Source: Oleisolibacter albus (lineage in GTDB: Bacteria > Pseudomonadota > Alphaproteobacteria > Azospirillales > Azospirillaceae). Taken from it: a stretch of 64,000 nt of DNA. Where the stretch lies: the NCBI RefSeq assembly GCF_003336875.1, contig NZ_QGNJ01000001.1, forward strand, positions 62,001-126,000, given 5' to 3'. The notes below the pieces were generated by a model. The model made no database searches and had not been told where the DNA came from. It saw only the letters and a program-made list of their open reading frames with translations. The translations under genes and the position numbers were made by a program. Positions 36,479 through 51,048 of the stretch are shown piece by piece (the stretch's first letter is position 1; the number at the start of each line of letters is the position of its first letter).

Positions 36479-36482
<4 letters not shown>
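35787..36482 (-). CDS. pcs: Phosphatidylcholine synthase
   Basis: A 231-residue CDP-alcohol phosphatidyltransferase with about seven or eight membrane helices. The catalytic motif is D50-G-I-D53-GPLAR, then G71 and D75, D79. The DGIDGPLAR variant and the DY.TYV.VPVVFL stretch are typical of the bacterial Pcs, which condenses choline directly with CDP-diacylglycerol. It is an inner-membrane enzyme common in host-associated alphaproteobacteria. GTG start overlaps the uvrA stop by four bases (GTGA), so it is translationally coupled to uvrA. Confidence 0.88.
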
Positions 36483-39337
<2,855 letters not shown>

Positions 39338-39508
39338 GCTGTGTTCTGTATCGCAAGTCCTGGCGCGGGGGAAGCAGCCATTTGAGGGCGACAGGCTTGC
39401 GAATATGGCGCGAAAGGCGCTGCGGTCAAAGCCGGCGTGCCATTCGCGTGCGGCATGGACAGCCGCGCCGCCGCCCGGCGCCCGGGCGGCGGTGGGTGGT
39501 CGCGGTGA

Positions 39509-40168
39509 TCAGGCGCCGAAGGTGAAGCTGTTGGGGGGCGCCCCCGTCAGGGCCAGGATCATTCCCAGCAGCTCGCGGCTGATGCCGAGGGGCAGATTGT
39601 CGGCGGCGACATGGAAGCTGTAGGCCCGACCGTCGCTGAACAGGAAATTGTCCAGGTTGCTGACCCCCAGTTCGGCCATGCGGCCCCGCGCCTGGATCTC
39701 ATTGAGGCTGCTGTTGTAGAGCAGGTCCTGACGGAAGAAGACGAAGCGGGACTGGTTCTCCGGCACGCTTTGCACCAGGGCGATGATCTCCAGCCAGCGA
39801 TAGATCTCCTCGCCGGCATTTTGGGGCGTGATGACCAGGGCCGGGATGTCCTTGACCGTCACCGTGACCGGACCGGGGCCGGACTCCTGCTGCGCCACCA
39901 CCCAGGGGCGGAACGTGTTGGCCGTGGGGCGCAGGGTGAACATGTCCACGAAATAGTCGGGACTCTGCTCGTCGATGATGGGCAGATTGGTCCGCTCCAG
40001 CCAGTAGAGGCGGCAGTCCTTGATCTTCGTAACCTGGATCTGCACGGGAAAGGTATGGCCAAAGGCGTAGCTGGGCGGTGTGGGGCTGCCGCCAGGAATG
40101 GGCTGGCCGCCGACCGTGAACATGCCGGGCAGGATGAAATCACCGACCTTGACACTCTGGACTGCCAT
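39509..40168 (-). CDS. Unknown protein between uvrA and ssb
   Basis: A 219-residue soluble protein that I do not recognise. It has no signal peptide or membrane helix, begins [15 protein letters not shown] and reads as a mixed beta/alpha domain with several aromatic residues ([33 protein letters not shown]). A good ribosome-binding site (GAAGGGAGAAC) precedes the ATG at 40168. A second strong Shine-Dalgarno (AGGAGG) upstream heads an out-of-frame ATGATG at 40203. The sequence looks less GC-rich than its neighbours, which may indicate transfer. Its promoter region is shared with ssb, including the SOS box. Confidence 0.75.
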
Positions 40169-40294: not shown

Positions 40295-40322
40295 TTGCAT
40301 TGTTCCTAAAATGTTCTATATA
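40295..40322 (+). promoter_or_regulatory. ssb promoter with embedded LexA/SOS box
   Basis: TTGCAT (40295-40300), a 16-base spacer and TATATA (40317-40322). The spacer contains GTTC-N7-GTTC at 40302-40316, an exact alphaproteobacterial LexA box placed to block RNA polymerase. The ssb ATG is about 240 bases downstream, leaving a long untranslated leader. The rest of 40169-40565 contains no supported gene. Confidence 0.75.
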
Positions 40323-40565
40323 TCGGTCAGATCGACTCGACCGACCGTCAGAACGGATTTGTTCGCTTTAAATTCCTTCAACGTTCCTGCTGCTGTTCAC
40401 TTGGCGGAACCGGTCGAGAACGTTAGGCTGGCGCCGCAGCGGTCCGCTGGCCGGACCGGTTGTGCGCCGGACGGGGCGGGCAGCAACGCTGGACGGCCGG
40501 ACCTGCACCGGATTGGGCACCGGACTTTTGGCGAAAGAATTCCGAACCGAGCGAAAGAGCGAAGC

Positions 40566-41132
40566 ATGGCTGGCAGCGTCAACAAGGTCATCCTCATCGG
40601 CAATCTGGGCAAGGACCCGGAGGTCCGGTCCCTGCAGAACGGTGGCAAGGTCTGCACCCTGCGCATCGCCACCTCGGAGAACTGGAAGGACCGCAACACC
40701 GGGGAGCGCCAGGAGCGCACCCAGTGGCACAGCGTGGTCATCTTCAACGAGAATCTGGTGGGCGTGGCCGAGCGCTTCCTGAAGAAGGGCAGCAAGGTCT
40801 ATATCGAGGGCCAGCTGGAAACCCGCAAATGGACAGACCAGCAGGGTCAGGAGCGCTATACGACCGAGGTCGTGCTGCGCCAGTACCGCGGCGAGCTGAC
40901 GCTGCTGGACGGGCGTGAGGGCGGTGCCGGCGGTGGCTACGATGATCGCGGTGGCGATTACGGCGGGGGCAGCGGCGGCGGCTATGGCGGCGGCGGCTAT
41001 AGCGGTGGCGGTTACGAGGACCGCTCCGCCGCCCGTGGCGGTCCGCAGCGCGGCGGGGCCGGCGGGGGTGCCGGTGGTGGCGCCGGTCGCCCGGCGCCTG
41101 CGGCGGATCTGGATGACGAAATCCCGTTCTGA
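40566..41132 (+). CDS. ssb: Single-stranded DNA-binding protein
   Basis: A 188-residue SSB. The OB fold (about 1-110) begins MAGSVNKVILIGNLGKDPEV and contains RTQWHSVVIFN and GSKVYIEGQLETRKW. A glycine/tyrosine-rich flexible linker (about 118-175) follows. The acidic tip DLDDEIPF recruits repair and replication partners. It binds single-stranded DNA as a tetramer. Start ATG at 40566 matches the universal N-terminus. SOS regulation is likely from the LexA box in its promoter. Confidence 0.97.
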   Translation: MAGSVNKVILIGNLGKDPEVRSLQNGGKVCTLRIATSENWKDRNTGERQERTQWHSVVIFNENLVGVAERFLKKGSKVYIEGQLETRKWTDQQGQERYTTEVVLRQYRGELTLLDGREGGAGGGYDDRGGDYGGGSGGGYGGGGYSGGGYEDRSAARGGPQRGGAGGGAGGGAGRPAPAADLDDEIPF

Positions 41133-50739: not shown

Positions 50740-51048
50740 ATGATGGACTACGCGGTCCAGTCCACCGATCAGGGGCTCAACATATCCCTGACCGGACGCA
50801 TGACCCTGATCGATCACGACAAGTTCCGGGCGGTGGTGGACAGTATCGAGCGGCTGAATGGCGGCATCTGCATCTTCGACCTGCGCGGGCTGGAGTTCAT
50901 CGACAGTTCCGGACTGGGCATGTTCCTGATCGCCCGCGATGTGGCCCAGCCCAAAGGCGTCGATATCCAGTTGCTTGGTGCCCAGGACGCCGTTCGCCGC
51001 ATTCTGCAGATCGCCAAGTTCCACACCCTGTTCAAGATCGCCCCCTGA
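50740..51048 (+). CDS. STAS-domain anti-sigma-factor antagonist
   Basis: A 102-residue single STAS domain of the SpoIIAA/RsbV type. The phosphorylation loop is FIDSSGLG (53-60), with S56 at the position phosphorylated in RsbV. The fold runs from the N-terminal strand YAVQSTDQGLNISLTG to the C-terminal helix HTLFKIAP. It should switch between a kinase-bound and a free state. It starts 14 bases after the cheZ stop, with an ATGATG start, and stands 5 bases before the kinase gene. Confidence 0.92.
   Translation: MMDYAVQSTDQGLNISLTGRMTLIDHDKFRAVVDSIERLNGGICIFDLRGLEFIDSSGLGMFLIARDVAQPKGVDIQLLGAQDAVRRILQIAKFHTLFKIAP

Follow-up and report, generated by a model that had tools for sequence, protein, structure and literature searches.

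A LexA operator at the ssb promoter is an arrangement of long-known kind. In the excerpt of PMC9505508, E. coli ssb has three promoters, and a LexA site at −170 acts on the distal one only. Excerpted text of PMC3323433 describes a split of the uvrA–ssb pair in some Vibrionaceae, where each gene has retained a LexA site of its own. The regulation of the divergent uvrA–ssb promoters of Sinorhizobium meliloti has also been studied (Tapias and Barbe 1999); the present locus shares with it the gene pair and the bacterial class, as far as the title of that paper tells. The LexA motif of Alphaproteobacteria is GTTC-N7-GTTC, as reported for Caulobacter in PMC12700426 and for the class in PMC3323433 and PMC2248561 (all three in excerpt).

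In the window (the whole 64-kb stretch of DNA that was analysed), uvrA and ssb are divergent, and an additional gene, X, lies between them. The region upstream of ssb contains the following features:

40295–40300, plus strand: TTGCAT, candidate −35 hexamer of a distal ssb promoter, P1 (read directly; no conservation among relatives)
40302–40316, plus strand: GTTCCTAAAATGTTC, predicted LexA box of P1 (GTTC-N7-GTTC match, relatives, matrix score)
40317–40322, plus strand: TATATA, candidate −10 hexamer of P1 (read directly; TAT-rich sequence follows the box in five genomes)
40566–41132, plus strand: ssb, 188 aa (Pfam SSB, E 9.7e-36; TIGR00621)

We propose that 40302–40316 is very probably the operator through which LexA controls a distal ssb promoter inducible by DNA damage, because lexA is present in the genome, the motif occurs at repair genes, the box ranks second in the window by matrix score, family members carry boxes at the same gene, and the contact between box and −10 hexamer is shared. 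The letters themselves are as originally described, and the predicted overlap of operator and promoter is supported at the level of sequence. The exact fit of the box between the two hexamers, which was part of the same prediction, holds base for base: TTGCAT and TATATA are separated by 16 bases, made up of a single T at 40301 and the box. TTGCAT is the weak part of this fit, being poorly matched and not conserved, whereas contact between box and −10 is the conserved part. A standard sigma-70 consensus scan picks up neither hexamer (TTGCAT 3/6; TATATA 4/6, without the last T). A TAT-rich, −10-like sequence directly follows the box in this genome and in G066, G076, G054, and G055, while the −35 hexamer varies.

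The ssb leader and a probable second promoter

The ATG of ssb is at 40566, and a P1 transcript would start near 40329, which gives a leader of ~237 bases and agrees with the ~240 bases originally predicted. The accompanying suggestion that so long a leader is unusual did not hold up, since the LexA-controlled ssb promoter of E. coli is also distal and a conserved TAGGST element probably marks a second promoter within the leader:

40401–40429, plus strand: TTGGCG-N17-TAGGCT, candidate proximal ssb promoter, P2 (TAGGST in 20 of 30 loci; promoter role predicted)
40361–40386, plus strand: GTTC-N7-ATTC-N7-GTTC, two overlapping putative one-mismatch boxes (10.57 bits, rank 11 in the window, and 10.69 bits, rank 9)
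40407–40421, minus strand: exact GTTC-N7-GTTC, inverted, within the P2 spacer (9.0 bits, rank 55 of 96 genome sites; not conserved)

TAGG[CG]T is found between −180 and −30 of ssb in 20 of the 30 family loci (shuffles: mean 2.1, at most 7) and is absent between −480 and −330 of the same 30 loci. In G066 both hexamers, TTGGCG and TAGGCT, recur with identical spacing. The element thus probably marks a second, constitutive ssb promoter, judging from its sequence and conservation, and the long leader needs no special explanation because this probable promoter lies nearer ssb. A structured leader RNA was considered and rejected: compared with shuffled sequence, no better folding was obtained for the 272 bases that follow the presumed P1 start (z +1.08) or for the 145 bases from P2 (z −0.06), and an Rfam search returned a single chance microRNA match far below the gathering threshold.

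A regulatory scheme is proposed where LexA, bound to 40302–40316 and touching the −10 hexamer, would keep RNA polymerase off P1 in undamaged cells, and ssb would be fed from P2 as long as P1 is shut. DNA damage would activate RecA and lead to self-cleavage of LexA, so that P1 opens and yields extra ssb transcript; uvrA, with its own LexA box over the start codon, would rise together with ssb from a separate operator. This two-promoter reading, with its predicted LexA binding, start sites, constitutive P2, and induction by damage, builds on the sequence elements and how far they are conserved, on the presence of lexA, and on the genes that the motif accompanies in the genome.

The segment from P1 to P2 also contains a cluster of LexA-like half-sites, the most unusual trait of the locus. 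Eight GTTC or GAAC tetramers fall within 120 bases from 40302, which is the densest such cluster in the window and the only one of seven or more; as it was noticed after the fact, this rarity is not a fair probability. The degenerate boxes at 40361–40386 show 11-base phasing, and G066 carries some half-sites at a like place between P1 and P2. The P1 box, the degenerate boxes, and the inverted box at 40407–40421 could be read as an extended LexA array that acts on both promoters. Four more leader sites are among the top 18 of the window, one of them overlapping the P1 box, and arrays of this kind do exist, as in E. coli, where uvrB has three promoters and four sites for LexA (PMC6015884, in excerpt). 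We nevertheless regard an array as unlikely, as the added sites score low (10.6, 10.7, and 9.0 bits), the cluster was spotted post hoc, and the full box within P2 is not conserved among family loci; the latter was accordingly rejected as a conserved operator. An array, if real, would place both ssb promoters under damage control, and with them the basal supply of an essential protein, whereas only the distal promoter is so controlled in E. coli. The main reading, with LexA acting at P1 and a probably constitutive P2, is retained below.

uvrA, its own box, and the intervening gene

On the other side of the intergenic region, the following features were assigned:

36479–39337, minus strand: uvrA (NCBIfam TIGR00630 and PRK00349, over cut-off)
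39332–39346, plus strand: GTTCATGCTGTGTTC, predicted uvrA LexA box, over the uvrA start codon at 39335–39337 (highest-scoring site in the window by matrix, 19.92 bits)
39402–39429, minus strand: TTGACC-N16-CATATT, candidate uvrA promoter (consensus scan; function predicted)
39509–40168, minus strand: X, an ORFan of 219 aa in the uvrA–ssb interval (present in 1 of 82 genomes, its own; no Pfam or NCBIfam family)

A uvrA match was obtained in 81 of 82 family genomes, and a box lies over the start codon in 20 of the 30 uvrA loci examined. In these 20 loci, as at 39332–39346 of the window, the box spans the first two codons, start codon included, so the sequence there is constrained both as an operator and as coding DNA.

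The uvrA and ssb boxes are the two best matrix sites of the window, and the prediction of a uvrA/ssb SOS pair is supported. The locus resembles its E. coli counterpart, as excerpted in PMC9505508, in having divergent genes and a LexA site that lies at a distance from ssb, on what is probably the outermost of more than one promoter. It differs in that E. coli uses one shared site of the form CTGT-N8-ACAG, a pattern with 0 matches in the 64-kb window, whereas here two separate GTTC-N7-GTTC sites, at 39332 and 40302, stand in place of a single shared one and flank an ORFan. The original prediction had linked two separate operators with an inserted gene. Both boxes are indeed present, but having two operators is not something that came with the insertion: in G066, G076, and G055, uvrA and ssb are near neighbors (453 bases from start codon to start codon in G066, 484 in G076) and both boxes are present, therefore the two operators are older than X. 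X would have arrived once both existed. The split pair of some Vibrionaceae, in the excerpt of PMC3323433, is similar in that DNA was inserted between the genes and both LexA sites were kept; there, however, the insertion was of phage and the ancestral site was shared, whereas at the present locus the insertion is a single ORFan and both sites are older than it.

The gene between the operators had been called unknown, and X remained an ORFan in all searches made. No homologue was found in the 81 other family genomes, which also constitute, together with its own, the order-level search set. Phage and plasmid sequences gave no match and PHROG a single one at E 0.068, and an origin of X as a phage or plasmid gene was rejected on these results. 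A single-sequence AlphaFold2 model reached a pLDDT of 33.7, too poor for a fold search. X is on the same strand as uvrA and its start is 134 bases from the ssb box; it may be co-controlled by that box.

An alternative is that the box at 40302–40316 is an operator mainly for the divergent side, for X and through X for uvrA, with ssb transcribed mostly from P2 and little induced. In nine genomes of the genus, a YjbR-like gene (Pfam YjbR for L033; read from the sequence in the other cases) lies between uvrA and ssb. The start-codon box of uvrA is absent in all nine, and the one box, between ssb and the YjbR-like gene that precedes uvrA, may serve that side. Moreover, E. coli ssb is induced to a moderate degree, owing to the additional promoters that it has (PMC9505508 and PMC3323433, both in excerpt). 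Here, however, uvrA keeps its own box, and the TATATA that follows the ssb box points towards ssb and is conserved in G066, G076, and G055, which have no intervening gene. We thus consider control of mainly the divergent side distinctly unlikely, and favor an operator of ssb P1. In this reading the locus would be an SOS pair that kept its control after a gene insertion, the uvrA box being retained here and absent in the nine sisters with a YjbR-like gene.

The motif in the genome and in relatives

A genome-wide scan for GTTC-N7-GTTC, which had been suggested as a check, returned 96 matches, all of which were taken with their surroundings and placed against reading frames. The reversed pattern gives 32, and about one third of the 96 are therefore at composition level. 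Boxes with AT-rich spacers precede lexA (two boxes), recA, an imuB-like gene (IMS domain), a methyladenine glycosylase gene, two radical-SAM genes, and an S24 peptidase gene; LexA and RecA are thus both encoded in this genome with the motif before their genes, as expected of an alphaproteobacterial LexA (SOS) regulon; a GTTC-N7-GTTC box at the promoter, also expected, is present at ssb. One boxed gene without a Pfam match we take to be imuA, from its sequence, and two further boxes are in a stretch whose frames are, on the same footing, presumably mug-like and recD2-like. The excerpt of PMC12700426 prints, for two Caulobacter genes, a box identical to that of the imuA-like gene, GTTCTTGTTATGTTC, and the motif and the AT-rich spacers are shared with the LexA regulon described there. 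ssb is named 0 times in the available text of PMC12700426, and no paper on the ssb operator of this family was found in the open-licence literature; the present site would make ssb a member of the LexA regulon in a further family of Alphaproteobacteria.

A LexA matrix was trained on 11 other boxes of the same genome, with the uvrA and ssb boxes excluded. On both strands of the window, the uvrA box scored first, as listed above, the ssb box second (16.95 bits), and the third site 12.95 bits. The training boxes score 16.3–26.4 bits when left out one at a time, which places the ssb box among the weakest of the SOS boxes; it ranks 19 among the 96 genome sites. The exact motif occurs four times in the window against 0.74 expected, with a maximum of three among 100 shuffles. 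Three of these sites fall between the uvrA start and ssb (39332–39346, 40302–40316, and, inverted, 40407–40421), and the fourth, at 50895–50909, is within a scored frame. Separately, the third-best LexA-like box of the genome (L084, 1001–1015; 25.6 bits) is at the start of a glutathione-S-transferase-like gene (1010–1690), which is not a usual SOS gene.

Among the 82 family genomes, 36 had an ssb match, and the loci of 30 were examined. Of these 30 loci, 18 have a box no more than 300 bp from ssb (shuffles: mean 0.24, at most 2), so the operator is conserved before orthologous ssb in part of the family. These 18 include L059, whose box is the uvrA start-codon box of a short intergenic region, and L056, whose box is doubtful owing to a GC-rich spacer. 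All 11 genomes of the genus have the box before ssb. The 12 loci that lack it include all six of genus g11, which keep the uvrA box. Class-wide, the best 80 of 589 ssb loci were taken, a choice that biases the set to similar SSBs, and 79 remained once L144, which lacked upstream sequence, had been left out; a box lies within 600 bp in 25 of these 79, against five for a reversed control, and in 21 of the 25 its orientation is opposite to that of the box at 40302–40316. That this box is a chance match to a short and frequent pattern is highly improbable, for even with a third of the genome matches attributable to composition and many inside coding frames, an independent matrix gives it second rank, the genus carries it throughout, and only 1.6% of dinucleotide shuffles of the 300 bp upstream of ssb produce such a box.

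The search for SSBs also revealed differences at the locus in other genomes. In G063, of genus g11, no SSB was found and the uvrA search returned only a distant paralogue, which probably reflects an assembly gap at the uvrA–ssb locus. None of the 45 g3 genomes matches the SSB of the window at E ≤ 1e-20, and the six that were probed carry only divergent SSBs (loci L064–L069 and L072; for example L068, 1318–1794). A divergent SSB adjoins uvrA in G002, G005, G010, and G015, as if the housekeeping ssb of g3 had been replaced in place, and in G002 a gene of the phage-integrase family lies beside it. In six g3 uvrA loci (L237–L240, L242, and L243), the start-codon box GAACACTCCATGAAC is repeated exactly 230–250 bases upstream (6/6), and part of the uvrA start is copied as well, forming a duplication scar that perhaps stems from the replacement of ssb.
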